From positions 1-43,838 of the forward strand of contig NZ_JAENWM010000025.1 in NCBI RefSeq assembly GCF_016650035.1: DNA of 43,838 nt, read 5' to 3'. Of this stretch, positions 623 to 19,417 are shown one piece after another. This DNA comes from Clostridium sp. (GTDB lineage Bacteria; Bacillota; Clostridia; Clostridiales; Clostridiaceae). A program made the translations under genes and the position numbers. A model generated the notes under the pieces. The model saw only the letters and a program-made list of their open reading frames with translations, was not told the origin of the DNA and made no database searches. How positions within the stretch are numbered: the stretch's first letter is position 1; every line of letters begins with the position of its first letter.

Positions 623-660
623 AAAAATAAAGGTTACCTTAATAGGCAACCTTTATTTTT
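623..660. terminator. Bidirectional intrinsic terminator
   Basis: Positions 623-635 and 648-660 form a perfect 13-bp stem with an A-run on one side and a T-run on the other, so it can stop transcription from both directions. The stop codon of the minus-strand selenoprotein gene (659-661) overlaps its base. Confidence 0.8.
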
Positions 661-934
661 AACCGCAACAGCCAGAACTCTTTATAACAAACTTATCTCC
701 ATCTTTTATTATTTCAAGATTTTTGATCAAAGATGCAATTTCAGCTTCAGCAGCAAATTTTATTCCATCAATTTCTGTAATAGTATCATTTTCTTTTTGT
801 TCATCCAGAACAATGTTGAAAATTGGACCACTTCAGCCAAAATCTACAACTTCAAATCTGACCACATCTTTATTTAGAGCAGTTAGCTGGTTTTTTACAT
901 CATTTAAGATGTCAGGTTTTATTATAACGTTCAT
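659..934 (-). CDS. HesB/IscA-like selenoprotein with in-frame UGA (Sec34)
   Basis: Reading from ATG 934 to TAA 659 gives 91 residues with one in-frame TGA at 833-835. The product is a HesB/IscA-type fold: VVDFGU-SGPIFNIVLDE aligns with the family's CxGP..xLDE segment, with the UGA in place of the first conserved Cys, and it ends SSGCCG like the family's C-terminal CG(C)G. HesB-like selenoproteins are an established bacterial selenoprotein family. The frame stays open and family-like for 57 codons after the UGA, which argues against a pseudogene. An upstream in-frame ATG at 982 with its own AGGAG would add 16 residues; I prefer 934 (GGGAGG 7 nt upstream) because the conserved domain starts there. 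It is the last gene of the 4747-659 operon. The protein probably handles an Fe-S cluster or metal with a selenolate ligand. I did not find a convincing bSECIS by eye. Confidence 0.82.
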
Positions 935-986
935 CCCTTTACCTCCCGAAGATTTATATTTTATAGAAGAAAATAATCCCATAAGA

Positions 987-1400
987 TTAAACTCCTTTAT
1001 TAATTAATAGTTCATCAAAATGTTTACATATTTCTGCAGCAACTTTATCTACCATTTTATAGTGTTCCTCGGTTAAGTTTCTAGTAGAAACAGTTTTATC
1101 TAAAGCAACATCTTCTCCTAATATATCCGAAACAATTACAGTAGCACTTACAGGTCCGCTATATTTTTCTGTAGCTCTTTTAGCACAACATTTACTGCAG
1201 CCATCTACTGCAATAACCGGAAAAGCTTTTGCAAAAAATCTTTCTTGTTCTCCACCTGCAACGTATAATGGAAGGCAAAGAGTAACGGTTGTACCTACAC
1301 GGAGTTCTTCAAGCATTTTTCTTGTGGCAAGCCTTGAAATAGTTCCGCCAAGACATTCTTCACCACTACAGGATAATACTCCAATTTTTGAATTAGCCAT
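987..1400 (-). CDS. DGC-domain putative zinc-binding protein
   Basis: This 137-residue protein belongs to the DGC family, named for its Asp-Gly-Cys motif. It has an N-terminal Cys motif (C11-S-G, C16) and the DGC motif D66-G67-C68 followed by C71-C72-A-K. These cysteines are the presumed metal or thiol-ligand site; the biochemical role of the family is not settled. AAGGAGGAG lies upstream of ATG 1400. It follows the DGC gene at 1402-1803 with a gap of one base and precedes the HesB-like selenoprotein. It is one of four DGC domains in this region, here with an extra adjacent Cys pair. Confidence 0.8.
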   Translation of the reverse strand: MANSKIGVLSCSGEECLGGTISRLATRKMLEELRVGTTVTLCLPLYVAGGEQERFFAKAFPVIAVDGCSKCCAKRATEKYSGPVSATVIVSDILGEDVALDKTVSTRNLTEEHYKMVDKVAAEICKHFDELLINKGV

Positions 1401-1401
1401 A

Positions 1402-1803
1402 CTATTTCTCCTCCTTTAAAATTTCATCTACTTTTATACAAATTTCCGCAGATAGTTCATCTACTACTTTCCATCCATCTTCAGTAAGAACCGTAGCAGT
1501 ACCTGCATTTACGCCTCTATGTTTTTTCATTTGATCTACAGTTTTATATTTTGCCTTTACTATGCCACCTGCAACCTCAACATTTTTAGCAGCACAAAGT
1601 GCAGGGCAACCATCAATTGTTATGCAAGAACAACCTTCAATCTTTTCTTTAGCATCTGCATCTCCAGTTACTATATGGGCAAGACAAACTGTATCAGTTT
1701 CACTCGGTTTTAAGTCAGTTGTAATATGCAAAGCTACTTCTCTTGACATAAGGCCAAATACCTTACCCATTCCGCTACAGGCTATAACTTTTACTTTAGA
1801 CAT
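1402..1803 (-). CDS. DGC-domain putative zinc-binding protein
   Basis: A 133-residue DGC-family protein with an N-terminal ACSGMG segment (C9) and the motif D64-G65-C66-P-A-L-C70-A-A-K. I chose ATG 1803 (MSKVKV) over the ATG nine bases upstream because AAAGGTGG abuts that earlier codon and is properly spaced from 1803. The start overlaps the stop of the DGC-lipoyl fusion gene (ATGTCTAA), so the two are translationally coupled. Function is unproven; the cysteine set suggests metal or arsenical/thiol binding. Confidence 0.8.
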   Translation of the reverse strand: MSKVKVIACSGMGKVFGLMSREVALHITTDLKPSETDTVCLAHIVTGDADAKEKIEGCSCITIDGCPALCAAKNVEVAGGIVKAKYKTVDQMKKHRGVNAGTATVLTEDGWKVVDELSAEICIKVDEILKEEK

Positions 1804-2647
1804 GAAATTCATCCACCTTTCTTTTTAGTACGCTATAATAATTATCAAAGTCATGAAGTAGTTCTTTATCACTTTCAAAATCGGATAACTCTATTTCGGC
1901 TATCCATCCATTTTCATATGGGTTTTGATTAATAAGCTCAGGTTCTTCTAACAGCTTTTCATTTACAGCTGTTATTGTACCGCTTACAGGGGATATAACT
2001 TCAAATACAGCTTTTCCAGACTCTACGTTTCCTACTTCATCAAACTGTTCTACCTCGGTGCCAACAGTTGGTGGAGTAAAGAACATTATATCTGAAAGAC
2101 TTTGCTGAACAAAATCGCCAACACCTATCCTTGCCTTATTTCCAACAACGTAAGCCCAACAGTCATTTTCATTAAAATAAAAACCTTCTTTTGGGGTTCT
2201 AAAGGTAAACTTATCTTTTCTATATTCATCATAGTCAATGTTTTCAGGAAAAGCAAATGAATTTTCACTTTCAACTTTTTTTTCTACTTTTGTTAGTTTT
2301 TCACTTATAATGCTAGCAAGTTTAAGCTCGTTTTCTCCAAGTCTTAGACCTTCGGTAATATTAATGTTATTTGATTTTGCTTCATCGCTTATATTAATTT
2401 TTTCGGAAATTTTTAAACCTTTTTCTATGGCAAGTTTACTGGCACATTTTGTAGCACAGCCATCAATTACTAAAAGAGACTTTTCTTGCGCAATTTTAGT
2501 ATACCTTGCGTCAGCTATTCTGTATAATACAGGACATATAATTTCACTATCCGTAGACTCAGAAAGATTTACTGCAACTTCCTTTGAAATGCAACCAGCA
2601 CATTTATCAAGGCCATTGCAGGGAAGTATAGCATAAGATTTACTCAT
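1796..2647 (-). CDS. DGC domain fused to GcvH-like lipoyl-carrier domain
   Basis: This 283-residue protein has two parts. Residues 1-125 are a DGC domain with C10, C16, C19 and D62-G63-C64-A-T-K-C68-A. Residues 140-270 are a GcvH/lipoyl domain with the lipoylation site in ESGKAVFEVISPVSG (K212), like the ES-K-...PVSG signature of glycine cleavage H proteins. GcvP and GcvT are absent nearby, but dihydrolipoamide dehydrogenase is encoded four genes upstream in the same operon, so the lipoyl arm is probably reoxidised or reduced by that enzyme rather than serving glycine cleavage. The fusion places a swinging dithiol beside a cysteine metal-binding site. Start 2647 has AAGGAG at 10 nt and overlaps the ferredoxin stop (ATGAGTAA). 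Domain calls are firm; the role is inference. Confidence 0.85.
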   Translation of the reverse strand: MSKSYAILPCNGLDKCAGCISKEVAVNLSESTDSEIICPVLYRIADARYTKIAQEKSLLVIDGCATKCASKLAIEKGLKISEKINISDEAKSNNINITEGLRLGENELKLASIISEKLTKVEKKVESENSFAFPENIDYDEYRKDKFTFRTPKEGFYFNENDCWAYVVGNKARIGVGDFVQQSLSDIMFFTPPTVGTEVEQFDEVGNVESGKAVFEVISPVSGTITAVNEKLLEEPELINQNPYENGWIAEIELSDFESDKELLHDFDNYYSVLKRKVDEFHV

Positions 2648-2933
2648 TAGCTGCCAGCTCCTTTCTTGTTTTCTTAATTTTAGTTGTAGTTTCCTTTTTA
2701 TCTGGGAAAGACAAGGCGTCTAGCCCACAAGTCTTTCCACAAGCTCTACAGAATACAACACAATTATCTGGGTTTTTTACTATGAGTTTTTTGTCTTCAT
2801 TTTCTCTTATTTCAAATACTTGATGAGGACAAAAGTCGGAACAGTCATTGCAAAAATTACATTTATCATAATCTATTGTTGGGCTCCAATCTATTGTATC
2901 TCTTGGAACACCCATAAAAGTTGATTCACTCAT
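2640..2933 (-). CDS. 2[4Fe-4S] ferredoxin-type protein
   Basis: A 97-residue protein with two Cys clusters: C25-x2-C28-x2-C31-x3-C35-P, the classical 4Fe-4S motif, and C58-x3-C62-x2-C65-x3-C69, a slightly expanded second motif. It lies between an HdrA-N-like gene and the DGC-lipoyl fusion, with its start overlapping the upstream stop (TAATG). It probably carries electrons between the HdrA-like/lipoyl components and cellular ferredoxin pools. The second motif lacks the usual CP ending, so the potential or cluster type may differ. Confidence 0.85.
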   Translation of the reverse strand: MSESTFMGVPRDTIDWSPTIDYDKCNFCNDCSDFCPHQVFEIRENEDKKLIVKNPDNCVVFCRACGKTCGLDALSFPDKKETTTKIKKTRKELAANE

Positions 2934-3313
2934 TATTCTTCCTCCTCAAAACCTAAGTCTTTTAATGCGTTTCTAACTACGTCAAAAGCTTTTTCGTTTG
3001 TCATATCTCTAATGTCAAGCATTACAGCATCTTTTTCTACATCTAGTCCAGCATTTTTAAAGGATTGTTTAAACATTTTCTTTTGCATATTTGGAGCGCA
3101 GGCACCTATTATTACTTTTCTGCCAGCTTTTAGATAGTCATCAAGAAATCTGTCTCCATCCTCTTCGCAAAGTTGAGGGTGAATAAAACCATACTCAACA
3201 GGGAGTTCAACTCTAACTTGATTTATGAAGTCCCAGATATCCATTGCCTGAAATCCTGGGCACTTTCCTGTACATACACACATTATAAAACCGGGTAATT
3301 GTTTTTCTTCCAT
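2933..3313 (-). CDS. HdrA N-terminal-domain-like iron-sulfur/Cys protein
   Basis: This 126-residue protein resembles the N-terminal domain of heterodisulfide reductase subunit A: a Cys-rich start (C12, C14, C18), then IHPQLCEEDG (C49) and VIIGACAPNMQKKMF (C72), matching the HdrA pattern of CS...G and VVAACSPRMHE. The flavin and ferredoxin domains of full HdrA are absent, so it is a stand-alone version. With lipoamide dehydrogenase, ferredoxin and a lipoyl carrier in the same operon it recalls the lipoate-linked sHdr sulfur-oxidation systems, but HdrB/C are not present. Four-base overlap with the ferredoxin gene indicates coupling. Confidence 0.65.
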   Translation of the reverse strand: MEEKQLPGFIMCVCTGKCPGFQAMDIWDFINQVRVELPVEYGFIHPQLCEEDGDRFLDDYLKAGRKVIIGACAPNMQKKMFKQSFKNAGLDVEKDAVMLDIRDMTNEKAFDVVRNALKDLGFEEEE

Positions 3314-3352
3314 AATAAAATCCTCCTTGTTTTTATATATTAAAGGGTATTC

Positions 3353-4747
3353 CTATAACTTGTGTAGGGATCTCCCTAAAACATCAGCGCAGGCTTCCCA
3401 TATTGCTTCACCTAAACTTGGATGTGGATGAATCATATCAGCTAATACATCAGCTTTAGCTTTTAAGGTAATAGCAAGAGTTATCTCTGAAATTATTTCA
3501 GAAGCATTAACGCCAAGTATTTGACAGCCTATAATAGTATTATCACTATCAGTTATAACTTTTACAAAGCCTTCTCGCTCACCGAGAGTTAAGGCACGCC
3601 CATTATTTCTAAAATCAAATCTCCCCACCTTTATTTCCATATGGAGACCTTCCGCTTGTTCTTCATTAATACCAACAGAAGCTACTTCAGGATGAGTATA
3701 AACACAGGCAGGAATAGCATTATAATTAACTCTGCTGTCTATTCCTAGTGCATTTTCAGCAGCCACTTTACCTTCAGTAAAGGCAAGATGAGCAAGAAGC
3801 CTTCCTCCAATAACATCGCCAGCAGCATAAATCCCACTGATATTTGTTTCCATGTTTTCATTAACTACAATAGCACCATTTTCCATGGTAAGGCCTAAGT
3901 TTTTAAACTCTTCGCAGGTGGAGTTAAGCTTTCTACCTATGGCAACTAAAACATTTTCACATAGCACAGAGGATTCACTATCTTTTTCAATGTATACTAC
4001 TTCAAGTTCATTTTCAGATTGTTTTATTTCCTTTACTGATGATGATAACTTAAAGTTTATCCCTTGCCTTTTCATAATCTTAAGAAGTGCAGTGGATATT
4101 TCCATATTCTCATTTGGAAGTATTTTATCTTTCATTTCAATTATAGTAACTTTACTCCCAGCAGAACTAAACATGGTAGCAAATTCAAGACCAATAGCAC
4201 CACCACCGATTATCACAATGCTTTTAGGTATCTCTGTAAGATTAAGAGCTTCATTACTGGTTATAACTCCGGTATGATCAATTCCATTTATTTTAGGAAT
4301 TAAAGGCCTAGAGCCAGTAGTTATAATTATTTTTCGGGTTGAAACTTCTATTTCTCCATCAACTGTTGAAACTAAAATTCTCTTTGGATCTTTAATATAA
4401 CCACTACCTTTTAAAACCATAATTCCTTTTGCAGGTAGCATATGTTCAAGACCCATATTTAAATTTTTTACAACTCTATTTTTTCTTTCGTTAGATGTGT
4501 TCCAGTTTATGCTTGATATATTACTATCAATTCCAAATTCCTTTGATTTTTTAAAATCACGAGAAACTTCAGAAGTTTTAAGAAGAGCTTTAGTTGGTAT
4601 GCAACCACTATTCAAACAAACTCCGCCCAGGTTACTTTCTTCTATTAGTACAACTTTGGCACCAAGCTGTGCTGACCTAATTGCAGCTACATACCCTGCG
4701 GGACCACCACCTATTATAGTAATTTCAGTACTTATTTTACTTTCCAT
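3353..4747 (-). CDS. lpdA: Dihydrolipoamide dehydrogenase
   Basis: A full-length 464-residue flavoprotein that oxidises dihydrolipoyl groups with NAD+. It has the FAD-binding GGGPAGYVAA loop (13-22), the redox-active disulfide in GGVCLNSGCIPTK (C44, C49), the NAD-binding IIGGGAIGLEFATMF, and the C-terminal catalytic HPHPSLGEA His-Glu segment. It is the first gene of the operon, about 50 nt from a TTGACT-N17-TAAAAT promoter (4835-4807), with GGAGG before ATG 4747. No 2-oxoacid dehydrogenase or gcvPT genes are nearby; its partner is most likely the DGC-lipoyl protein downstream. Confidence 0.92.
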   Translation of the reverse strand: MESKISTEITIIGGGPAGYVAAIRSAQLGAKVVLIEESNLGGVCLNSGCIPTKALLKTSEVSRDFKKSKEFGIDSNISSINWNTSNERKNRVVKNLNMGLEHMLPAKGIMVLKGSGYIKDPKRILVSTVDGEIEVSTRKIIITTGSRPLIPKINGIDHTGVITSNEALNLTEIPKSIVIIGGGAIGLEFATMFSSAGSKVTIIEMKDKILPNENMEISTALLKIMKRQGINFKLSSSVKEIKQSENELEVVYIEKDSESSVLCENVLVAIGRKLNSTCEEFKNLGLTMENGAIVVNENMETNISGIYAAGDVIGGRLLAHLAFTEGKVAAENALGIDSRVNYNAIPACVYTHPEVASVGINEEQAEGLHMEIKVGRFDFRNNGRALTLGEREGFVKVITDSDNTIIGCQILGVNASEIISEITLAITLKAKADVLADMIHPHPSLGEAIWEACADVLGRSLHKL

Positions 4748-4948: not shown

Positions 4949-5242
4949 ATGAACCGAGAAGATTTAACTATAAAAGTTTTTAAAGCACTTGGGAACCCAG
5001 TGAGATTTAAAATTATGAGATTTTTATGTGATAGCCCAAAATGTGTTTGCAAGTTAAATGAAGAATTCGAGTATAGTCAAGCTAATTTATCTCAGCATTT
5101 AAGAATACTTAAAGATGCAGGGCTAGTTAAAAGTGAGAGAGTAGGACTTGAAATGCACTATAGATTATATAATGAAAAAATTAAAGATGTTATTTATAAA
5201 GTTGAAGATTATGTTAAAGATTTTTTCACTGATATAAAATAA
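4949..5242 (+). CDS. ArsR/SmtB-family transcriptional repressor
   Basis: A 97-residue winged-helix regulator with an ArsR fold: LGNPVRFKIMRFL, then a recognition helix in YSQANLSQHLRILKDAGLV and a wing around ERVGLEMHYRL. The segment C32-V-C34, next to C27, resembles the CVC metal-binding motif of As(III)/Sb(III)-sensing ArsR and of CadC-type sensors, so it probably senses a thiophilic metal(loid) or a reactive sulfur species. AGGAGG lies 8 nt before ATG 4949. It is divergent from the lpdA operon and upstream of sufC, with shared operator-like words in three intergenic regions. The inducer cannot be told from sequence. Confidence 0.88.
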   Translation: MNREDLTIKVFKALGNPVRFKIMRFLCDSPKCVCKLNEEFEYSQANLSQHLRILKDAGLVKSERVGLEMHYRLYNEKIKDVIYKVEDYVKDFFTDIK

Positions 5243-5413: not shown

Positions 5414-6154
5414 ATGATAGAACTTAAAAATATAAGTTATAAAGTTGAAGGTGTCAATACCGTAGAAATTATTAAAAATTTAAGTTTTGAATTTACGGAA
5501 AATAAAATTTATGTAATTACTGGACCAAATGGTGGAGGTAAATCCTCCCTAGCCAAGTTACTTATGGGTATATATAAGGTGTCATCAGGTGAGATTTTAT
5601 ATAATGGAGAAGATATAACAAACCTTGAAATAACAGAGAGAGCAAAACTTGGTATTGGATATGCATTTCAGCAACCTCCAAAATTCAAAGGTATGAAGGT
5701 AAGTGAATTGTTAAAACTTTCAGCTGCAAAGGGTAATTCAACTTTGAACCCACATAATATACTCCTAGATGTAGGCCTTTGTCCAAAAGATTATTTGAAT
5801 AGAGAAATAGATGCAAGTCTTTCAGGGGGAGAGCTAAAACGGATAGAAATTGCTTCAATATTAGCTAGAAAGCCTAAATTTGCTATCTTTGATGAGCCAG
5901 AAGCCGGAATAGATTTATGGAGTTTCGAAAAACTATCAGAGACCTTTAAGAAACTACATGAAGAGACGAATGCAACCATAGTTATAATTTCACATCAGGA
6001 AAGAATACTAAAGTTAGCTGATGAAGTAATTCTCATAGCCAATGGTAAAATAAAGGAAGTTTCAAATACCGATAAGATACTTATGGAAATTAGAGGTAAT
6101 GAAGAGTGCGATTGTAGAAAAGTATTTAAAATAGGGGAGGAGATAGTATGTTAA
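5414..6154 (+). CDS. sufC: SufC-like Fe-S cluster assembly ATPase
   Basis: A 246-residue ABC ATPase: Walker A GPNGGGKSS (37-45), Q-loop in FQQPPKF, signature LSGGELKR, Walker B FAIFDEPEAGID and the switch His in ISHQ. SufC powers the SufB scaffold for Fe-S cluster assembly. It overlaps sufB by 7 bases, forming a two-gene minimal SufBC unit with no SufD, SufS or SufU here. The C-terminus carries CDCRK and ends in Cys, unusual for SufC. Context ties it to the neighbouring Fe-S and selenoprotein operon. Confidence 0.85.
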   Translation: MIELKNISYKVEGVNTVEIIKNLSFEFTENKIYVITGPNGGGKSSLAKLLMGIYKVSSGEILYNGEDITNLEITERAKLGIGYAFQQPPKFKGMKVSELLKLSAAKGNSTLNPHNILLDVGLCPKDYLNREIDASLSGGELKRIEIASILARKPKFAIFDEPEAGIDLWSFEKLSETFKKLHEETNATIVIISHQERILKLADEVILIANGKIKEVSNTDKILMEIRGNEECDCRKVFKIGEEIVC

Positions 6155-7068
6155 GTGAAGTTGAGAAACAAGTTTTAAAAGCAATCTCGAATGATCATAG
6201 CATACCACAAGTTGCTTATAATTTAAGGAAAAATGGAGAAGGTGCAGATAGATCAAGCGATGAAGAAATTACTATAAATACTAAGAAAGATAAACCTGGA
6301 ATTGATGTTTTTGTTAAACCAGGTACAAAAAATAAAAGTGTCCATATACCAGTTATTATTTCAAAAACGGGTATAACAGATATGGTTTATAACAGTTTTG
6401 ATATTGGAGAAGATAGTGATGTACTTATTGTTGCTGGCTGTGGTATTCATAATCCAGGCGATGACAAGTCTCAGCATGACGGAATTCATGAATTTTTGGT
6501 TCGTAAAAATGCTCACATGAAATACACTGAAAAACACTATGGACAAGGTGAGGGAATGGGTAAAAGGATACTTAATCCTAAAACAATTCTTGAAGTATTT
6601 GAAGGTGGGTCCGTAGAAATGGAGCTTATTCAGATTAAAGGGGTAGATAATACAATTCGTGAAACCGAAGTAACACTTCATGAAGGGGCAAGCTTAATAG
6701 TAACGGAAAGGTTATTTACTGACTACAATCAGAAGGCAGAATCTCACATAAATATTAGACTACTAGGAGAGAATTCTTCAGCACAGATTATTTCAAGATC
6801 CGTTGCTAGGGGGAAATCTGAGCAGACTTATTACTTTAATATGATAGGGGAAAATAAGTGTGCAGGCCATATACAATGTGATGCAATAATTATGGATGGT
6901 GCAAAGATAACATCGCTTCCTGCAATCTCAGCTTTTCACCAAGATGCGCAACTTATTCATGAGGCGGAAATAGGTAGAATTTCTTCAGAACAGTTAATAA
7001 AGCTCATGTCACTAGGTTTATCTGAAAAGGAAGCAGAAGATAAAATATTAGAAGGGTTCTTAAAATAA
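6148..7068 (+). CDS. sufB: SufB/SufD-family Fe-S cluster scaffold
   Basis: A 306-residue SufB/SufD-family protein, shorter than the roughly 470 residues of typical SufB and matching the minimal SufBC systems of anaerobes. The C-terminal half carries the beta-helix core and the typical segment ISAFHQDAQLIHEAEIGRIS followed by QLIKLMSLGLSEKEAEDKI, which matches SufB/D C-termini. GGAGGAG precedes ATG 6148. It is co-transcribed with sufC. It probably supplies clusters to the ferredoxin, HdrA-like and HesB-like proteins of this locus, or acts in general cluster assembly. Confidence 0.85.
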   Translation: MLSEVEKQVLKAISNDHSIPQVAYNLRKNGEGADRSSDEEITINTKKDKPGIDVFVKPGTKNKSVHIPVIISKTGITDMVYNSFDIGEDSDVLIVAGCGIHNPGDDKSQHDGIHEFLVRKNAHMKYTEKHYGQGEGMGKRILNPKTILEVFEGGSVEMELIQIKGVDNTIRETEVTLHEGASLIVTERLFTDYNQKAESHINIRLLGENSSAQIISRSVARGKSEQTYYFNMIGENKCAGHIQCDAIIMDGAKITSLPAISAFHQDAQLIHEAEIGRISSEQLIKLMSLGLSEKEAEDKILEGFLK

Positions 7069-7096
7069 ATTAATTTGATTACTAGAAATATTTCTA

Positions 7097-7165
7097 TTGA
7101 CAAATTAAATTAAAGGTGTAATATAAGGTTATAAGCAATTAATTAAATAGTTAATTAAATAAATA
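7097..7165 (+). promoter_or_regulatory. Promoter and operator of the DGC/AhpD-like gene pair
   Basis: TTGACA (7097-7102) with a TAATAT-like -10 at 7119-7124, followed by tandem TTAATTAA palindromes (7139-7158). The 15-mer TTAATTAAATAGTTA at 7139-7153 is identical to 4777-4791 in the lpdA operon leader, suggesting common control. Confidence 0.55.
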
Positions 7166-7185
7166 AACAAATGGAGGAATATATA

Positions 7186-7665
7186 ATGAGTGAAATAAAA
7201 AAACCTACAGGAACTGTAGCAAAAAAACAAACTGAAAATTGGTATCTTCCTTATATGGATAAGAAAACAAAGGGTATGGAAGTTGAAGAACAAAAAAGCC
7301 CAGTTGCAGTATTTTACTGTGCAGGTGCATCAAATGTAGGACAGTCAACAATGCTTGGTAGCGTAAAGGCAGCAAATAATGTTGGTTATGATAAGGCATC
7401 ATTATTATGTCTTGCAAGTATTTCAGCAAAACTTGCTAACATTACAAATGGAGCAAAAAATGCAAAAGGAATAGTAGCTATAGACGGATGTCCAATGAGT
7501 TGTGCTAAAAAAACTTTACAGGCCTTTGGATTTGAAGCAGATAAACATATTATTGTTTCCAAAGATTTAGGAGTTGCAAAGAATTTTGATTTAAACTCAG
7601 CTACAGATCTTGAAAAAATTTCTACCGCAGTGGAAAATGCAGTTTTAGAAGTTTACGAGAAATAA
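7186..7665 (+). CDS. DGC-domain putative zinc-binding protein
   Basis: A 159-residue DGC-family protein with an N-terminal extension of about 40 residues, then YCAGASNVGQ (C45) and D100-G101-C102-P-M-S-C106-A-K-K. I chose ATG 7186 because GGAGG sits 8 nt upstream; the in-frame ATG at 7171 overlaps that ribosome site. It is the fourth DGC domain in the region and the only one on the plus strand, under an operator shared with the other three. Confidence 0.82.
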   Translation: MSEIKKPTGTVAKKQTENWYLPYMDKKTKGMEVEEQKSPVAVFYCAGASNVGQSTMLGSVKAANNVGYDKASLLCLASISAKLANITNGAKNAKGIVAIDGCPMSCAKKTLQAFGFEADKHIIVSKDLGVAKNFDLNSATDLEKISTAVENAVLEVYEK

Positions 7666-7705
7666 AATTAGTTGTAAAAAAAATAAAAATATGGAGGGAA
7701 TTATT

Positions 7706-8059
7706 ATGGATTACAAAGAAATTATAGAACATATTAAAAAAGAAAATGGTGAGGTACCAAAACCAATACAAGCTTTAGGAAACTTAGATGAAAGTCTTGT
7801 TATAAATCATATAATGGATAAAAAATTTGTAATGTCAAAACAGACAATACCAGGAAAGTATAAAGCTTTAATACTTTTATCCGCTGCAATTGCATTAGAT
7901 GCTCAAACTTGTATTTTAAATAATACTAAGTTAGCAAAGAAAAATGGAGCAACTGTGGAAGAAATAATGGAAACATTTGCTTTAGCTAAATTTTCTAAAG
8001 CAGCTACTACGCTATCTAATTCTACGCCAGCATTTGAATGGCTTTTAGCAAATAAATAA
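7706..8059 (+). CDS. AhpD-like / carboxymuconolactone decarboxylase-family protein
   Basis: A 117-residue all-helical protein of the CMD/AhpD superfamily: LSAAIALDAQTCILNNTKLAKKNGATVEEIMETF matches the family core. AhpD proteins usually carry a CxxC plus a His in this helix; here a single Cys remains and the catalytic His is Asn, so classical AhpD peroxidase-reductase chemistry is doubtful. AhpD normally works with lipoyl proteins and lipoamide dehydrogenase, which makes its presence beside a lipoyl operon notable. Start 7706 follows GGAGGG at 7 nt. Confidence 0.7.
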   Translation: MDYKEIIEHIKKENGEVPKPIQALGNLDESLVINHIMDKKFVMSKQTIPGKYKALILLSAAIALDAQTCILNNTKLAKKNGATVEEIMETFALAKFSKAATTLSNSTPAFEWLLANK

Positions 8060-10880: not shown

Positions 10881-11819
10881 GTGAGAGAAGTTGGAGGAAT
10901 AATTGCTGCTGCCAACAGATGTGTAGCTTATCCAATGAAAAAGGTCGGTTCAATTTCTTTAATTCAAAGAATAGTACTTACATATAAAAAGGCTGGTATA
11001 TGGCCTATTGTGGTAATTACGGGTTTTGAGGAACCAGAAATAAAGTCAGATCTTGCACGAGAAGATGCTATTTTTATTATAAACAAGGATTATGAAAATC
11101 CTCCACTTATCGATTCCTTCAAGATTGGACTTAAATATCTTCTAGGTAAATGTAACAGAGTTATATTAACACCTGTAAATGTGCCTATGGTTAATTATAA
11201 GACAGTGATGGAAATGATTGAAATAAAGGATGACATCGTTATTCCATCATATAATATGCATGGTGGACATCCTTTACTCATGGATAGTTTACATATTCCG
11301 AGTATTCTTTCCTATGATGGTGAGGATGGACTTAGGGGAGCTATTAATTCCTTGGGTGTTTCTATAACTTGGCTCAATGTGAATGATAGAGGAGTTACAT
11401 GCTCAATTAATGATGATGACGAAATTAAAGAACTTCTACCTTTGCACAATGATAGTTTGTTTCAGCCTGCTTTAACTATAAATATAAGGAAAGAGAAGGT
11501 TTTTCTTGATTCTAGATTAAGACTTCTTCTTGAGCTTATAGACGACAATGAATCTGTTAATGGCGCTTGTAAAAGGATGTCTTTATCCTTAAGCAAAGCT
11601 TGGGATATGATTAATGAACTTGAAAAAAATCTTGGTTATGAAATAGTTTTAAGAAGACGAGGAGGTGCAAAAGAAGGGAGAACACAACTTAGTCCTGAGG
11701 GTAGAGATTTTATGGAGAATTATGATCAGTTCTATAGTGCGGTAACTAAGTATACTTGGGAGCAATTTAAAAAGTATTTTGAAGACAAAACATCGAAAGA
11801 TATAGAATACGATGTATAA
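10881..11819 (+). CDS. MobA-like nucleotidyltransferase fused to ModE-type HTH
   Basis: A 312-residue protein in two parts. Residues 1-190 resemble MobA/MocA-like NTP transferases that make nucleotide-modified molybdopterin. Residues 205-290 are a ModE/LysR-like winged helix (LDSRLRLLLELIDDNESVNGACKRMSLSLSKAWDMI split over the helices, then GGAKEGRTQLSPEG). The usual G-rich loop GxSxRMG is replaced by AAANRCVAYPMKKVG, so catalysis is doubtful and the domain may work as a sensor. GTG 10881 follows GAGGTG. It precedes the molybdenum hydroxylase genes and probably regulates them or matures their cofactor. Confidence 0.75.
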   Translation: MREVGGIIAAANRCVAYPMKKVGSISLIQRIVLTYKKAGIWPIVVITGFEEPEIKSDLAREDAIFIINKDYENPPLIDSFKIGLKYLLGKCNRVILTPVNVPMVNYKTVMEMIEIKDDIVIPSYNMHGGHPLLMDSLHIPSILSYDGEDGLRGAINSLGVSITWLNVNDRGVTCSINDDDEIKELLPLHNDSLFQPALTINIRKEKVFLDSRLRLLLELIDDNESVNGACKRMSLSLSKAWDMINELEKNLGYEIVLRRRGGAKEGRTQLSPEGRDFMENYDQFYSAVTKYTWEQFKKYFEDKTSKDIEYDV

Positions 11820-12066: not shown

Positions 12067-14184
12067 ATGAATAATATAGGAAATTCAGTTCGTAAAAAAG
12101 ATCATTTAAAAAAGATATTAGGTGTGGCTAAATATGTAGCAGATGTTCCTACAGATGGAATTCTTCATGGTAAGTTTTTGAGATCAACAGTAGCTCATGC
12201 TAAAATAAAAAGCATTAACGTGCCAGAATTACCGGATGGATACATGATAGTAGACAAGGATGATGTTCTTGGTGAAAATAAGGTTCATATAGTACTCGAG
12301 GACATGCCAGTATTTGCTATAGATACTGTGGAATACATTGGGGATCCAATTCTCATGGTGGTAGGGCCGGATGAAAAAATCACAGAGGGAATTGTTGCGA
12401 AGATAGTGGTCGATTACGAGGAACTTCCAGTTGTTATTGATATGATTAAATCAGAAGTTGCATTTTTTGACTACCATCATGAGAAAGGTGACGTGGATGG
12501 GTGCTTTAAAAATGCGGACAAAGTGTATGATGAAATTTTAAATACGGGTTATGGTGAACAATTGTATCTAGAAACTAATGGAATGATTGCAGACTATCAT
12601 GACGGTAAAATTACCGTTAGAGGGTCCATGCAATGCCCATATTATGTTCTTACAGCTGTTAAACTTGCAACAGGACTTGAAAAGGATAAGGTTCAGGTTC
12701 AGACAGATATTACAGGTGGAGCTTTCGGTGGAAAGGAAGATTATCCATCAATACTTGCATGTCAGGTAGCGGTAGCAAGTATGAAAGCTAAAAAACCAAT
12801 AAGAGTTATTTTTGATAGAAGAGAAGATATTACGTCAACTAGCAAGAGACATCCATCAACTGCAAGATATAGGGCTGCTGTTAAGGATGGAAAGATTACA
12901 GCAATGGATATCGATATAATATATGATGCAGGGGCATATTCAACACTCTCAGCAGTAGTACTTCAGCGTGGAACAATATGTGCCACTGGAGTTTACAAAA
13001 TAGAAAATTTAAGGGTTCACGGTAAGGCTAATAAAACAAATACAGTTCCTAAGGGTGCTTTCAGAGGATTTGGAGCACCACAGGTATTCTTTGACATGGA
13101 TCTTTTTATGAACCATGTAGCAAAAGGTGAAGGACGAAATAGCTTAGAGTTTAAACAAGAACATATTGTAATGCAGGGAGATGACACTTCAACTAATGGA
13201 AAATATCATTTCCATGTTCCGCTCAGACAGATGATCAAAGAAGTGGACGTCCTTTGTGATTACAAGAAGAAAAAAGAACTTTATGACAAGCCACAGACTG
13301 GAAGATTTAGACGTGGAATAGGAATGCAACTTGCATTTCATGGTGCAGGCTTCACAGGTTCAGGAGAAAGAGACTTAATAAAAGCAGTACTAAAAGTTAA
13401 AAAGCATAAAGATGGCACTGTGGAAATTCTTACTTCAAATACTGATATGGGGCAAGGGCTACAAACAACCTTCGCAAAAATAGCAGGTAAAGAGCTAGGA
13501 ATTCCATTTGAGAAAATAATAGTACGTAACCCAGATACTGACAAAGTTCCAGACTCTGGCCCAACTGTTGCATCGAGATCACTTATGATAGTTGGAGAGC
13601 TTGTCCGCCTTGCCGTTGTTAGGCTTAGAGATGAATGGAAGGATGGAGAGGAGCAGATTATTGAGGAGCATTACAAACATCCAGAGTTTCTTATACCATT
13701 CTCACTTGCTGAATTCCGTGGAGATGCTTATCCAACCTATTCTTGGTCAGTTCAGTCAGTAGAGCTTGAAATTGATATGTTAACTGGTCAGCATAATGTA
13801 ATAGGTGCATATGGGTCTTTTGATGTAGGAACTCCTATTGACATGAATATAGTAGTAGGGCAAATGGAGGGTGGAATGCTTCAGGGAATTGGTTATTCAT
13901 CAATGGAATTTATGGATCATGATAGCACAGGACGCATTAGAAATAACAGCTTGAGCGATTATATCATACCAACTGCTATGGATGTGCCAGTCATTAAGGC
14001 TTCGATGCATGTTAATGAATATCCTTATGGGCCTTATGGAGCTAAATGTGCAGGAGAACTTCCAAATGTAGGAACTGCTGCAGCATATATAGAGGCTGTA
14101 GAACAGATTTTAGGTAAGAAAGTTCAGCACATTCCATTTACAGTAGAAGATACACTAAAAGCAATATCCTCAAAAGAGGACTAG
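12067..14184 (+). CDS. Molybdopterin-binding subunit of a xanthine dehydrogenase-family hydroxylase
   Basis: A 705-residue catalytic subunit. N-terminal residues 1-120 form the aldehyde oxidase/XDH a/b hammerhead domain (RKKDHLKKILGVAKYVADV). The Mo-pterin domain follows with TGGAFGGKED, the hallmark GAFRGFGAPQ near residue 330, DMGQGLQTTFAKIA, and the C-terminal GPYGAKCAGELPNVG containing the catalytic Glu of XDH enzymes. It hydroxylates purines or similar heterocycles in the cytoplasm with electrons passed to the 2Fe-2S and FAD subunits encoded next. Guanine deaminase downstream makes xanthine, the likely substrate. Clostridial members are often selenium-dependent, and other selenium evidence is in this window. 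AGGAGG precedes ATG 12067. Substrate is inferred from context. Confidence 0.88.
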   Translation: MNNIGNSVRKKDHLKKILGVAKYVADVPTDGILHGKFLRSTVAHAKIKSINVPELPDGYMIVDKDDVLGENKVHIVLEDMPVFAIDTVEYIGDPILMVVGPDEKITEGIVAKIVVDYEELPVVIDMIKSEVAFFDYHHEKGDVDGCFKNADKVYDEILNTGYGEQLYLETNGMIADYHDGKITVRGSMQCPYYVLTAVKLATGLEKDKVQVQTDITGGAFGGKEDYPSILACQVAVASMKAKKPIRVIFDRREDITSTSKRHPSTARYRAAVKDGKITAMDIDIIYDAGAYSTLSAVVLQRGTICATGVYKIENLRVHGKANKTNTVPKGAFRGFGAPQVFFDMDLFMNHVAKGEGRNSLEFKQEHIVMQGDDTSTNGKYHFHVPLRQMIKEVDVLCDYKKKKELYDKPQTGRFRRGIGMQLAFHGAGFTGSGERDLIKAVLKVKKHKDGTVEILTSNTDMGQGLQTTFAKIAGKELGIPFEKIIVRNPDTDKVPDSGPTVASRSLMIVGELVRLAVVRLRDEWKDGEEQIIEEHYKHPEFLIPFSLAEFRGDAYPTYSWSVQSVELEIDMLTGQHNVIGAYGSFDVGTPIDMNIVVGQMEGGMLQGIGYSSMEFMDHDSTGRIRNNSLSDYIIPTAMDVPVIKASMHVNEYPYGPYGAKCAGELPNVGTAAAYIEAVEQILGKKVQHIPFTVEDTLKAISSKED

Positions 14185-14238
14185 ATATAAGTAATTACAT
14201 GTGGACACCCATATTAAAATAGAGAGGAAGGTATACTC

Positions 14239-14712
14239 ATGAAATATATTGAGTTCAAACTTAATGGAGAAAACATTCAATATGAGGGTAGTGCGAAAGA
14301 CAGGCTCTTGGATGTATTGAGAGACACGTACAGGCTTACTGGAGTAAAGTGTGGTTGTAAAGAAGGTGAATGTGGAGCTTGCTCTGTTATTATCGATGGA
14401 AGACTTGCTAATTCATGTATGATAGCAATGGGAAGTATTCATGGAAGTAATGTTATGACCATAGAGGGATTTAGCAAAACTGAAAGGTTTAAGGTTATTG
14501 ATAAAGCATATGGAGATGTTTCAGCAGTGCAATGTGGATTTTGTATACCAGGGATGGTGCTTGCAACAGAGTGTATACTTGCAAAAATTCCACATCCAAC
14601 AGAGGAAGATATAAGACGTGGAATATCCGGAAATTTATGCCGTTGTACAGGATACAATTCAATAGTTAAAGCTATAGGAATCGCAGCAAAAGAAGGTGAA
14701 GGATTATGGTAA
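14239..14712 (+). CDS. 2Fe-2S subunit of the molybdenum hydroxylase
   Basis: A 157-residue subunit with two [2Fe-2S] clusters: a plant-type ferredoxin motif C40-x4-C45-x2-C48-x11-C60 and the helical domain C99-x2-C102 with C134-x-C136 in GNLCRCTGY. It carries electrons from the Mo site to FAD. Its stop overlaps the start of the FAD subunit gene by 7 bases. Length and motif order match stand-alone XdhC/CoxS-type subunits. Confidence 0.93.
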   Translation: MKYIEFKLNGENIQYEGSAKDRLLDVLRDTYRLTGVKCGCKEGECGACSVIIDGRLANSCMIAMGSIHGSNVMTIEGFSKTERFKVIDKAYGDVSAVQCGFCIPGMVLATECILAKIPHPTEEDIRRGISGNLCRCTGYNSIVKAIGIAAKEGEGLW

Positions 14713-15533
14713 CATTAAATAATGGATACATGCCAGAAACATTAGACGAGGCACTTTCAGTAATGAGGGATGAAAAGGTTAAGCCTTACAGTGGAGGAAC
14801 TGACCTTATGCTTGAAGTAGGGGAAGGTGCAAGCTATCTATTTTTGAATAAGATACCAGAGCTTAAGATAATAAGGGAAGATTCTGATTATATAAGAATG
14901 GGGGCACAGTGTACTTTCACTGAAATAGAGGAATCAGATCTTGCACCTCGAATTTTAAAGGATGCAATGTCACAGCTTGCAGGCCCAGCTGTAAGAAATT
15001 TCGGAACTATTGGTGGGAATATAGGAAATGGATCTGCAAAGGCTGATTCAGCTTTGGTATTATTCGTTACGGACTCATTAATTAGACTAAAAAGTGCTAG
15101 TTCTGAGAGAATAATATGTATTAAAGATTTTTATAAGCAAAGAAAACAACTTGACCTGAGAGAAGGGGAACTAATAGTTGAAGTTTTAATACCTAAAAAA
15201 TATCTTGGAAATTATTATTATAAGAAGATAGGAGCTAGAAAGGCATTAGCAATTACGAGAGTGGGATTTGCAGCGCTTCTCCACGCGGAGAATGGAGTGA
15301 TTACTCATGTAGCAACTGCATTTGGAGCAATCGAACCTACCATAGTTAGACATCCGGAAATTGATGAGATGTTTATAGGAAAGACTATTAGTGAAGCTAA
15401 AGGGTTAAAGGATAATTATCTAAATGTATACAATAATGCGATAAATCCAAGTAACGGGAGAGTTTCAAAAGAATATAGGAAAACTGTATGTATTAATCTA
15501 TTAAAAGATTTTTTAAATGAAAATGGTATCTAA
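14706..15533 (+). CDS. FAD-binding subunit of the molybdenum hydroxylase
   Basis: A 275-residue CoxM/XdhB-type flavoprotein: PYSGGTDLMLEVGEG is the first FAD-binding loop and FGTIGGNIGNGSAKADS the second, followed by the C-terminal CO-dehydrogenase flavoprotein domain (KIGARKALAITRVGFAALL). It passes electrons to NAD+ or another acceptor. It overlaps the 2Fe-2S gene and ends the operon. Confidence 0.92.
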   Translation: MVTLNNGYMPETLDEALSVMRDEKVKPYSGGTDLMLEVGEGASYLFLNKIPELKIIREDSDYIRMGAQCTFTEIEESDLAPRILKDAMSQLAGPAVRNFGTIGGNIGNGSAKADSALVLFVTDSLIRLKSASSERIICIKDFYKQRKQLDLREGELIVEVLIPKKYLGNYYYKKIGARKALAITRVGFAALLHAENGVITHVATAFGAIEPTIVRHPEIDEMFIGKTISEAKGLKDNYLNVYNNAINPSNGRVSKEYRKTVCINLLKDFLNENGI

Positions 15534-15576
15534 TTAATGTGTAAAGTTGTAAAATAAAGAGAACAATTAAATATTA

Positions 15577-15644
15577 TCTTGTATATATTAGAAATATGCT
15601 CTAATAGTATCTACCAGGTTGCTGTAAATTACCTGACTACAAGA
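15577..15644 (+). promoter_or_regulatory. Guanine-class purine riboswitch aptamer
   Basis: The three-way junction is clear: P1 TCTTGTA/TACAAGA (15577-15583, 15638-15644), P2 15587-15592 with 15600-15605, J2/3 AGTATCTACC (15606-15615), P3 CCAGGT with ACCTG and L3 containing TGTAAAT. L2 has ATATG, as in known purine aptamers. The base that pairs with ligand is C (15637, in GACTAC), which specifies guanine rather than adenine. J2/3 reads GUAUCU where typical aptamers have GUUUCU, a change at a flipped-out position. It sits 137 nt before the guanine deaminase gene. Confidence 0.88.
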
Positions 15645-15715
15645 ATAAATTGAAGCTATGCTGAATTAAGCTTCAATTATTCTATAGTCATTTAACTTAG
15701 TAACCTGGTTTTTTA
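15614..15715 (+). terminator. Riboswitch-controlled long terminator, mutually exclusive with aptamer
   Basis: CCAGGTT (15614-15620, the 5' side of aptamer P3) pairs with AACCTGG (15702-15708), followed by six T. Inside, GACTA (15635-15639) pairs with TAGTC (15685-15689), AGAATAA (15642-15648) with TTATTCT (15677-15683) and TTGAAGC (15650-15656) with GCTTCAA (15670-15676). These uses of P3 and P1 strands exclude the aptamer, so ligand binding should prevent termination: an ON switch. Confidence 0.75.
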
Positions 15716-15780: not shown

Positions 15781-17046
15781 ATGAAAGCACTTAAAGGTAA
15801 TATAATTTTTACTGCTTCTAGTGAAAAGTTCGAAGTCTATGAAAATAGCTATCTTGTAGAGTCTGATGGAACAGTTATAGGAATATTCAAAGAACTCCCA
15901 AGCCACTTAAAGGGGACTCACGTTGATGATTTTGGCAATTCACTAATAATCCCTGGATTCGTAGATATGCACACGCATGCTCCACAGTTTCAGAATATGG
16001 GTATGGGCCTAGATGAGGAACTGTTGCAATGGCTTAATAAGTATACATTTCCAGAAGAAGCGAAATATAGCAATGAAGAATACGCCAAGAGGCTTTACAC
16101 AAAGCTTGCAAAGGAGTTGTGGAGAAATGGAACCACTCGCGTTGTACTTTTCTCTACTATTCACAGAAATGGAACTGAAGTTCTAATGGATGTCATGAAC
16201 AGAGCGGGAATTGGGGCTTACGTTGGAAAGGTTAATATGGATAGACATTCACCGGATTTTTATGTAGAGTCAACTGAGGAATCATTATCATCCACTGAAG
16301 AATGGATATTAGCTACGAAGGATAAGTACAATCTTGTAAAGCCTATAATAACACCAAGGTTTGTTCCAACCTGTTCAGTAAAGCTCATGAAGGGTCTTGC
16401 TAAGCTTTCTGAAAAGTACAATCTTAAAGTGCAAAGTCATCTTTCTGAGAATGAGGATGAGATTCAATGGGTGAAAACGCTCCATCCAGAATTTGACTCA
16501 TACGCAGATGTATATAACGGAATGAACCTTCTGACTGAAAATACGATTATGGCTCATACGGTATATAGTACCCCGGAAGAAATAGAGCTACTAGCTAAAA
16601 GGAACAGCTTCATTGCACACTGCCCAAATGCTAATTACAACTTGTCATCAGGCATAATGCCAGCAAGGAGATTCATTGATGCTGGCATTAGGGTTGGACT
16701 TGGAACAGACATAGGTGCAGGTCATCAGATAGGTATATATAAGGTAATGAACAGTGCCGTTCAAGCTTCGAAGATAAATTGGATTAATAGTGGCAAGGTT
16801 GAAAGGTGCCTTACAATGTCAGAAGCTTTCTATATGGGAACAAAAGGTGGTGGAGAATTCTTTGGGAAGGTGGGGTCTTTCGAGGAGGGATACTCACTAG
16901 ATGCTCTCGTAATAGATGATGAGAACCTTGGTGACAGGGATTTTAGAAGTATTGAGGAGCGCCTACAAAGGTTCATATACTGCGGAGATGACAGAAATAT
17001 AACAAAACGTTATGTTGCTGGAGAACTACTTTGTGAGCCAATGTGA
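15781..17046 (+). CDS. guaD: Guanine deaminase
   Basis: A 421-residue amidohydrolase that converts guanine to xanthine and ammonia. Zn ligands are visible: H64 and H66 in PGFVDMHTHAPQF, H220 in QSHLSENEDE, H259 in MAHTVY, and D310 in GLGTDIGAGH; HCPNANYNL is the typical guanine deaminase loop. GGAGG precedes ATG 15781. The guanine riboswitch in its leader and the xanthine dehydrogenase-like genes upstream support a guanine to xanthine to urate or ring-cleavage route. Confidence 0.93.
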   Translation: MKALKGNIIFTASSEKFEVYENSYLVESDGTVIGIFKELPSHLKGTHVDDFGNSLIIPGFVDMHTHAPQFQNMGMGLDEELLQWLNKYTFPEEAKYSNEEYAKRLYTKLAKELWRNGTTRVVLFSTIHRNGTEVLMDVMNRAGIGAYVGKVNMDRHSPDFYVESTEESLSSTEEWILATKDKYNLVKPIITPRFVPTCSVKLMKGLAKLSEKYNLKVQSHLSENEDEIQWVKTLHPEFDSYADVYNGMNLLTENTIMAHTVYSTPEEIELLAKRNSFIAHCPNANYNLSSGIMPARRFIDAGIRVGLGTDIGAGHQIGIYKVMNSAVQASKINWINSGKVERCLTMSEAFYMGTKGGGEFFGKVGSFEEGYSLDALVIDDENLGDRDFRSIEERLQRFIYCGDDRNITKRYVAGELLCEPM

Positions 17047-18209: not shown

Positions 18210-18788
18210 ATGGCAGTTAATTTAAAAAAAGGTCAAAAAGTAGATTTAACAAAGACAAATCCAGGATTAAAAAAAGTGCTAGTAGGACTAGGCTGGAGTA
18301 CAAACAAGTATGACGGCGGAGCAGACTTCGATTTAGATGCAGCAGCATTTTTAACAGGAGAAGATAAAAAAGTAACCTCCGATGCGGATTTTATATTCTA
18401 CAACAATGCAGAGCATGCATCCAAATCGGTTAAACATATGGGAGACAATAAGACTGGCGCTGGAGACGGGGATGATGAACAAATACTCATTGACCTATCT
18501 TTAGTACCAGAAGCTATTAAGAAAATTTCATTTACTGTAACAATTAATGAAGCAGAAGAAAGAAGACAAAACTTTGGACAAGTTTCAGATGCTTATATTA
18601 GAGTAATGAGTGGAGACGGAACTACCGAGTTAATTAAATTTGACCTTGGAGAAGACTTTAGTATTGAAACAGCACTAGTAGTTGGAGAACTATACAGAAA
18701 CGGAGCTGAATGGAAATTCACTGCATTAGGTAGCGGATTCGAAGGTGGGCTAGGCGCTTTATGTACTAACTTTGGAGTTAGTATCTAG
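18210..18788 (+). CDS. terD: TerD-family protein
   Basis: A 192-residue TerD-domain protein (stress/tellurite family, calcium-binding fold). It starts with the family signature [13 protein letters not shown], then [18 protein letters not shown] and the acidic [14 protein letters not shown] loop with Ca2+-binding Asp residues, and ends with [21 protein letters not shown] lies before ATG 18210. It is one of two tandem paralogues; terC and other ter genes are absent here. Its physiological role in clostridia is not known from sequence. Confidence 0.9.
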
Positions 18789-18850
18789 TGTTTAATGTTA
18801 TTAAGTTAAAGCAATAAACTTTAATGCATTTTATAGGGAGGCATACTAAT

Positions 18851-19417
18851 ATGGGAGTTAATTTGATAAAAGGTCAAAAAGTAGATTTAACAAAAGGTAA
18901 TGCATCATTAAAGGAATTAATAGTAGGATTAGGTTGGGATAGTAGCAATGGTGGCGACACTATTGATTGTGATGCATCAGCTTTAATGTTAGGGGAAAAT
19001 GGAAAGTTATCAAATGCCAAGAGTATAATATACTTTGGTAACAAGAAAAGCAAGTGTAAGAGTGTAGTTCACCAAGGTGACAATCTTACTGGTGCAGGGG
19101 ACGGCGATGACGAACAAATAGTTATAGATTTAATAAAAGTACCAGATGATATATCTAAGATAGTTTTCGTTGTTAATATTTATAATTGTGCGTCTAAAAG
19201 ACAGCATTTTGGAATGATTAAGAATGCTTACATCAGAATTATGGATAAATCGGTTAATGGTGAGTTGGTTAAATTTAATCTTTCTAATGATTACAACAAC
19301 ATGACATCTTTAATAATGGGCGAAGTTTACAGAAATAAGGGAGAATGGAAGTTTACAGCAATAGGAGAAGGTTCTACTGCCGTTAGCATAACAGAATTAT
19401 CAGCAAAATATAAATAA
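18851..19417 (+). CDS. TerD-family protein, divergent paralogue
   Basis: A 188-residue TerD-domain protein about half identical in motifs to its upstream neighbour: [37 protein letters not shown] and [13 protein letters not shown]. The first acidic loop has Cys replacing an Asp (DCDAS). I chose ATG 18851 because GGGAGG lies 9 nt upstream. It arose by tandem duplication. A terminator follows at 19483-19534. Confidence 0.87.
   Translation: MGVNLIKGQKVDLTKGNASLKELIVGLGWDSSNGGDTIDCDASALMLGENGKLSNAKSIIYFGNKKSKCKSVVHQGDNLTGAGDGDDEQIVIDLIKVPDDISKIVFVVNIYNCASKRQHFGMIKNAYIRIMDKSVNGELVKFNLSNDYNNMTSLIMGEVYRNKGEWKFTAIGEGSTAVSITELSAKYK

Follow-up and report, generated by a model that had tools for sequence, protein, structure and literature searches.

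A conserved gene module built around a DGC-GcvH fusion protein and its recurrent association with arsenic genes

A 43,838-nt stretch of the Clostridium sp. contig NZ_JAENWM010000025.1 (assembly GCF_016650035.1, positions 1 to 43,838, forward strand; "the window" below denotes this whole stretch) encodes, near one end, an operon centered on a protein in which a DGC domain is fused to a GcvH-like, lipoyl-type domain. The five-gene core of this operon, namely a stand-alone protein equivalent to the N-terminal domain of HdrA (HdrAN), a ferredoxin (Fd), the fusion protein and two additional DGC proteins, is conserved far beyond the window, and its genomic neighborhood points to arsenic. The gene set, its conservation and co-occurrence, the predicted folds and the arsenic neighborhood are established directly. 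These observations appear most compatible with a metalloid-responsive lipoyl dithiol/Fe-S relay, most likely acting on As(III)/Sb(III), a reading to which we assign a probability of about 0.55. The operon and the divergent regulatory gene next to it consist of the following:

3353..4747, minus strand: lpd, dihydrolipoamide dehydrogenase (Lpd), separate from the copy in the glycine cleavage system (GCS) cluster; TIGR01350, 521.9 bits (cut-off 408.8)
2933..3313, minus strand: HdrAN, stand-alone HdrA N-terminal-domain protein with five invariant cysteines; family profile and AlphaFold model
2640..2933, minus strand: Fd, ferredoxin with two four-cysteine motifs, CxxCxxCxxxC and CxxxCxxCxxxC; Fer4 families
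1796..2647, minus strand: DGC-GcvH fusion, four-cysteine DGC domain and H-protein lipoyl-type domain with K212; GCV_H 115.8 bits, PF08859 65.7 bits
1402..1812, minus strand: DGC protein 2; PF08859, 44.6 bits
987..1400, minus strand: DGC protein 3; PF08859, 65.7 bits
659..934, minus strand: HesB/IscA-like protein, probable selenoprotein, accessory; TIGR01911, 40.5 bits (below the cut-off of 66.35)
4949..5242, plus strand: ArsR/SmtB repressor with a CVC motif, divergent from the operon; NF033788, 91.7 bits (cut-off 55)

The initial annotation described the minus-strand genes as a coupled set of seven; all seven are present on this strand, and their families are confirmed by the Pfam and NCBIfam profile searches on which the assignments of the window proteins rest. 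The genes are tightly spaced: lpd and HdrAN are separated by 39 nt, HdrAN and Fd overlap by 1 nt, Fd and the fusion by 8 nt, and the fusion and DGC 2 by 17 nt, DGC 2 and DGC 3 are 1 nt apart, and the HesB-like gene, with its start codon placed where its relatives start, begins 52 nt past DGC 3. Four proteins of the window, including one encoded outside the operon, score above the gathering threshold of 27 for the DGC family PF08859 (44.6-81.5 bits), and the four DGC cysteines of the fusion are also found, by eye, in DGC 2 and DGC 3. The GcvH half of the fusion contains both the lipoyl-type lysine and a predicted H-protein fold; the single-chain model, at pTM 0.55, does not fix how the domains are arranged. 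The HdrA-N match of the single HdrAN sequence from the window is weak (E 3.9e-5); the HdrAN family profile and the AlphaFold model each match the N-domain of solved HdrA. The contig edge (185-619) encodes part of a second Lpd/MerA-like flavoprotein, limited to its NAD domain (best match NF004991, 117 bits, cut-off 620), which is either a remnant or a truncated gene.

Conservation was assessed in 81 loci, namely the window and the best 80 of 116 relatives of the fusion retrieved by scanning named genomes. Because the motifs FNEND[CV]W and LPCNGLDK served as the scan query, selection biases the conservation seen within them; K212, C38, C64 and C68 are not part of either motif. The lysine K212 and the DGC cysteines C10, C38, C64 and C68 are invariant in 81/81 loci, with the invariance of C10 partly selected because this residue is inside a scan motif. 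In 79 of the 81 loci, HdrAN, Fd and the fusion follow in this order on one strand, separated by medians of 18 and 14 nt; the order is found across phyla and is not a peculiarity of this genome. The two exceptions are L104, where the start of the fusion was called too early and Fd is overlapped, and L146, a cut contig. All five HdrAN cysteines are kept in 80/80 sequences and the eight Fd cysteines in 79-80 of 80, and in 77/81 loci the 1.6 kb downstream of the fusion contain at least two further DGC genes. The co-occurrence of DGC, GcvH-like and HdrA-N genes, which the initial annotation proposed to check, is conserved across genomes; Lpd is encoded in 40 of the 81 loci, in 38 of these 40 within 3 kb of the fusion. 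Lipoate ligase genes are present in 26 loci, at a median distance of 975 bp from the fusion, and show no enrichment over control loci around canonical gcvH (8/20). Some loci share one genome, with two each in Desulfosporosinus metallidurans, Desulfosporosinus BRH_c37, Lucifera butyrica and Eubacterium callanderi.

The same pattern is seen in two genome sets that partly overlap the 81 loci and are not independent of them. Among 206 Clostridiaceae genomes, nine encode the fusion, all nine with the order HdrAN-Fd-fusion-DGC-DGC and six with an adjacent lpd. Of 391 genomes drawn from the class, seven encode HdrAN (E <= 1e-10), and these are exactly the seven that encode a full-length fusion, with eight copies of each. 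Identity to the window protein is higher for HdrAN (59-90% in 44 aligned relatives) than for the fusion (43-77% in 49 aligned relatives). The hosts represent at least nine phyla (Bacillota, Bacteroidota, Actinomycetota, Acidobacteriota, Armatimonadota, Chloroflexota, Thermodesulfobacteriota, Planctomycetota and Asgard archaea), four of these by one locus each, and many loci come from metagenome bins; they include Clostridium, Acetobacterium, Bacteroidales and Asgard archaea. In the tree of the fusion proteins, the labelled rows are grouped by phylum with the fewest possible changes, nine for ten groups (two each for Bacillota and Bacteroidota; nine unlabelled rows are uncounted). Because it is found from acetogens to Asgard archaea, the module would be either old or widely exchanged.

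As controls for the genomic context, 20-kb stretches surrounding 20 canonical gcvH genes in 19 other Clostridia genomes (two from one genome) were used. Neighbors were named after a single representative of each cluster or after the corresponding protein of the window; the representatives score above the curated cut-offs for ACR3, ArsM, ArsE, ArsF, ArsA, ArsD, LplA, DUF2703 and the desulfurase, and below them for the ArsC-like protein, the CcdA-like protein, the permease and the second thioredoxin. At least one core ars gene (ACR3, ArsM, ArsC, ArsA or ArsD) is present in 53/81 loci vs 0/20 in the control, or 48/81 vs 0/20 when ArsC is left out, and 73 of the 81 loci contain an ars gene or ArsR. 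The individual families follow suit: ArsR (68/81 vs 2/20, p 7.6e-10), ACR3 (32/81 vs 0/20, p 1.7e-4), ArsE-type thioredoxin (44/81 vs 0/20, p 1.8e-6) and a second thioredoxin-like family (24 vs 0), a CcdA/DsbD-like membrane protein (37/81 vs 0/20), an ArsC-like protein (25 vs 0), an ArsP/SaoE-like permease (19/81 vs 0/20), ArsF (18 vs 0), ArsM (17 vs 0) and ArsA (13/81 vs 0/20, p 0.046). Other neighbors are not enriched, namely SmsC (12/81 vs 5/20), CDF (13 vs 2) and Lpd (40 vs 16). Close to the core (up to 2 kb), the density of eight ars marker families is 0.16 per kb; it falls to 0.08-0.10 beyond 6 kb, and the 400 kb of control DNA contain none.

The association extends to all 13 clade groups, none of which lacks core ars genes altogether. 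These groups were assigned by hand from names and the tree; L129, labelled Alphaproteobacteria, falls inside Bacteroidota and was counted there. Core ars genes are found in 14/21 loci of Clostridiaceae and other Clostridia, 5/12 of Desulfosporosinus and its kin, 8/11 of Eubacteriaceae and 2/2 of Lucifera. The other counts are 10/14 in Bacteroidota, 3/5 in Actinomycetota, 3/5 in Acidobacteriota, 2/3 in Asgard archaea, 2/4 in unclassified bacteria and 1/1 each in Armatimonadota, Chloroflexota, Thermodesulfobacteriota and Planctomycetota. In Clostridiaceae, where ACR3-positive genomes carry one or two copies, a search with the curated ACR3 model, which does not depend on the locus-derived profiles, places ACR3 on the same contig, 1.3-5.8 kb from the fusion, in four of the six ACR3-bearing genomes that encode the fusion. 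The window itself encodes ArsR and ArsP-like half permeases, and the ACR3 of this genome is on another contig.

Metalloid stress is the likely physiological setting of the module. In the mechanism that we favor, trivalent arsenic would cause ArsR to release the operon, as its family and motif suggest, and the GcvH half of the fusion would be lipoylated at K212, which is very probable given the invariance of this lysine, the fold and the neighboring ligases. The reduced lipoyl dithiol is a textbook target of trivalent arsenic and is here taken to be a high-affinity ligand of it. The dihydrolipoyl arm could bind the arsenical as a cyclic dithiolate and swing between the four-cysteine sites of the DGC proteins, which would hand it over to export (ACR3/ArsAD/permeases) or to methylation (ArsM), with a redox step en route; Lpd would restore the dithiol using NADH. 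The N-domain of HdrA is an Fe-S-type domain that passes electrons within HdrA, and HdrAN together with Fd might supply low-potential electrons to the dithiol or to the arsenical. The step in question might be the handover to ACR3/ArsA or ArsM, the reduction of an arsenical that is pentavalent or methylated, or chemistry below As(III). The initial annotation proposed a dithiol relay for a metal(loid) or sulfur; the context favors the metalloid half of this proposal, whereas lipoylation, relay chemistry, cargo, direction of transfer and of the electrons, and the redox step are what we infer. Neither a gene order confined to this genome nor a gcvPT cluster relying on the fusion as its H protein, either of which would have refuted the initial proposal, was found. 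The chances that arsenic itself rides on the lipoyl arm seem about even. More tentatively, lipoate would have a third role, beyond acyl/aminomethyl transfer and the sulfur oxidation of the sHdr system, as an arm that moves arsenic (or antimony) from one protein site to another and that, with HdrAN and Fd, takes part in a low-potential conversion of arsenic. Such a conversion might, for instance, reduce arsenic beyond As(III) or act on As-C or As-S bonds; we know of no enzyme for it.

Among known systems, the closest in concept is sHdr-LbpA, which, in the accessible parts of the sources, combines a GcvH-like lipoyl protein, its own ligase genes nearby and Hdr-related Fe-S partners in a role outside carbon metabolism (PMC6067878, PMC10332631). 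Like LbpA, the fusion is a putative GcvH-like lipoate-binding protein outside the GCS. The module differs from sHdr-LbpA by the DGC fusion, the DGC partners, the arsenic-gene neighbors and its hosts, among them Clostridium, Acetobacterium, Bacteroidales and Asgard archaea. A full-length HdrA-like flavoprotein is a feature of sHdr, whereas the module encodes only the HdrA N-domain, with HdrAN at ~126 aa compared to 654-671 aa for HdrA and the later HdrA domains absent from the same chain. The CCG signature of HdrB (CX31-39CCX35-37CXXC, a pattern used without a positive control) was found in 0/81 loci in a six-frame scan. Given the absence of a CCG-type HdrB signature in the 81 loci and the restriction to the HdrA N-domain, the module is not a member of the sHdr-LbpA type, although the two may be partly similar in the way they work. 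The module resembles the ars operons (ACR3, ArsM, ArsA/ArsD, ArsEFG) in its probable control by ArsR and is repeatedly linked to them physically; no description of any of its five core genes as an ars gene was found, and the term "DGC" is absent from the main text of two arsenic-gene surveys. Literature matches for the DGC domain concern, by title, diguanylate cyclases or c-di-GMP, experimental evolution and nitric-oxide sensing, with no study of a DGC protein among them. No description of the module is among the literature matches listed, a coverage that largely leaves out subscription papers and preprints, and on this basis we take it to be a new kind of system.

The fusion is most likely not the H protein of the GCS. 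Contig 155 of the same genome encodes lplA, gcvT, gcvH, gcvPA, gcvPB and a second lpd, and its gcvT-gcvH-gcvPA-gcvPB-lpd cluster provides its own, canonical H protein of 127 aa. In contrast to that protein, the fusion contains a DGC domain, scores below both GcvH equivalog cut-offs (TIGR00527, 104.9 vs 115.85 bits; NF002270, 114.8 vs 117 bits) and has no gcvT or gcvP next to it in the window. The proposal that the operon lacks 2-oxoacid dehydrogenase and GCS partners holds locally, and the E2 domain of 2-oxoacid dehydrogenases (PF00198) has no match in the genome at E <= 0.001, but all components of a GCS, an H protein and an Lpd of its own included, are encoded elsewhere. In the absence of an E2 match, GcvH and the fusion are the only clear lipoyl acceptors found, each with an adjacent Lpd gene. 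The only match to the lipoate ligase model TIGR00545 in this genome sits beside the GCS. Three weaker GCV_H matches on two other contigs could be biotin carriers.

Several observations weigh against the arsenic relay. No core ars gene is present in the available DNA of 28/81 loci, including the window and its nearest relative L081, and some of these loci are short contigs; however, among the 44 loci of at least 19 kb, 31 have a core ars gene and 13 have none. At the genome level, ACR3 is found in 6/9 Clostridiaceae genomes with the fusion vs 105/197 others, which is little difference. ArsD (10/81 vs 0/20, p 0.098) and DUF2703 (9 vs 0, p 0.12) are not significant alone. All control loci are from the class Clostridia and were selected by hand among GcvH matches with long contigs, and the marker profiles derive from the fusion loci themselves. 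In 51/68 loci, the nearest ArsR fits the pattern C[VIALTS]Cx[LIVM], in line with As(III)-sensing ArsR, but this figure comes with no baseline from unrelated ArsR proteins. Furthermore, a review describes arsenite binding to lipoic acid as weak (PMC6205960), contrary to the high affinity assumed here. To these can be added a cysteine desulfurase in 17/81 loci, no more than 3 kb from the fusion in 15 of these, and a rhodanese cluster in seven loci, which together make a lipoyl sulfur relay the main rival explanation. The arm would then move sulfane sulfur (persulfide) from the desulfurase or rhodanese, either for thiolating arsenic to less toxic thioarsenicals or for rebuilding arsenic-damaged Fe-S clusters. 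A Se/S-carrier cluster in six loci (this count and that for rhodanese come from ORF neighbor clustering with one representative named each; the counts for HdrAN, Fd and others come from profiles), the HesB-like and SufBC-like genes of the window, and the precedent of persulfide carriage proposed for LbpA in sHdr (PMC6067878, accessible part) speak in the same direction. However, neither desulfurase nor rhodanese is found in the available DNA of most loci, the desulfurase enrichment over the control is not significant (17/81 vs 1/20, p 0.081) and the HdrB-type signature is missing from all loci, so that we consider this explanation unlikely; the arsenic and sulfur readings could be combined as thioarsenical chemistry. 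As separate observations, a TIGR01977-type cysteine desulfurase is encoded beside a PF04060 Fe-S protein near the module in L085, L134, L136, L137, L139, L140, L141 and L144, and one of the same type beside a Se/S-carrier protein (PF11823) in L091, L093, L094, L109, L130 and L135 (one representative named in each case).

A less probable explanation is an NADH-driven thiol-reductant system, in which Lpd and the lipoyl-DGC protein would re-reduce ArsC, ArsM or other thiol enzymes under arsenic stress and no arsenic would be carried. The presence of ArsC-like proteins, ArsM, the two thioredoxin-like families and Lpd in many of the loci (25, 17, 24 and 44, and 40 of 81, respectively) is compatible with such a system, but it leaves the near-universal HdrAN and Fd and the three DGC sites unexplained, ArsC lies beside ACR3 in only 11 of the 32 ACR3 loci in the available DNA, and dedicated thioredoxins are often present in the loci already. 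The module might also serve a thiophilic metal other than arsenic, namely Zn, Cd, Cu or Hg, and the arsenic genes would then be co-selected neighbors. Some ArsR/SmtB members sense Cd/Zn, the DGC family is annotated as putative zinc-binding, and CDF proteins and SO_0444-like permeases occur in some loci, with a CDF protein in the window as well. Nevertheless, the CDF genes are not enriched (13/81 vs 2/20), whereas ACR3, ArsM, ArsA and ArsD are found in none of the 20 control loci, which makes this alternative rather improbable. Finally, the GCV_H sequence and fold of the fusion, together with the lipoyl-relay role of Bacillus subtilis GcvH (PMC6067878, accessible part), might suggest an auxiliary H protein or a lipoate carrier for glycine cleavage or lipoate assembly. 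This is very improbable in view of the sub-threshold GcvH scores, the complete GCS with its own H protein, the lack of an E2 match in the genome that an auxiliary carrier could lipoylate, and the constant partners of the fusion, which are HdrAN, Fd and DGC proteins.

The module is real and far wider than the window, and its context suggests arsenic, with the reaction itself being a proposal. Dihydrolipoyl groups being a textbook target of As(III), one would hardly expect arsenic clusters to include a dedicated lipoyl-type protein: if the arsenic relay is correct, a classical victim of arsenic poisoning has been turned into a tool of detoxification. Lipoate would then have a new function, arsenic biology would acquire a new machine whose core genes lend themselves to searching and deletion, and the DGC proteins would gain a biological setting. 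Culturable hosts, e.g., Clostridium ljungdahlii (L082), in which ACR3 and ArsA genes adjoin the module, make it accessible to genetics.

The HesB-like protein, which the initial annotation included as a part of the system, is present in the window but turns out to be accessory and outside the core, with a selenoprotein gene of this type in only 8/81 loci. The window gene is probably a selenoprotein gene despite the sub-threshold TIGR01911 score, as indicated by its sequence features: the position of the in-frame TGA (833-835; motif USGP) alternates between U and C among relatives, and a stem-loop lies 3' of the TGA (z -3.42). The genome also encodes selB, with a score over the cut-off. Other HesB-like genes with an in-frame TGA near the module are located in L087 (11653-11937), L107 (6371-6658), L102 (12081-12440), L130 (8663-9085) and L135 (8733-9131), with the motifs USGP, UAGP or UGGP.

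Behind the divergent ArsR gene, the plus strand of the window encodes additional proteins:

5414..7068, plus strand: minimal SufC-SufB-like pair, possible partner operon; SufC 137.2 and SufB 78.4 bits, both under the equivalog cut-offs
7171..7665, plus strand: fourth DGC protein; PF08859, 81.5 bits
7691..8059, plus strand: CMD/AhpD-like protein; PF02627, 33.7 bits
8155..10216, plus strand: CDF efflux protein and two half-size ArsP/SO_0444-like permeases; TIGR01297, 276.1 bits; PF03773, 30.7 (just under the cut-off of 32.3) and 42.6 bits (over it)

Parts of the SufC-SufB-like/DGC 4/CMD set (5414-8059) reappear near the core in L084 and L115. Farther along the window, an ORF at 10881-11819 combines a MobA-like nucleotidyltransferase domain (PF12804, 45.3 bits) with a weak LysR-type helix-turn-helix (PF00126, 24.6 bits, under the cut-off) and adjoins molybdenum-hydroxylase-like ORFs at 12067-15533 (by eye). 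These in turn adjoin the region of a purine riboswitch (15559-15659; RF00167, 68.7 bits), which precedes a 421-aa ORF (15781-17046) resembling, by eye, a guanine-deaminase-type amidohydrolase. Two adjacent ORFs at 18210-19417 resemble, also by eye, tellurium-resistance proteins of the TerD family.

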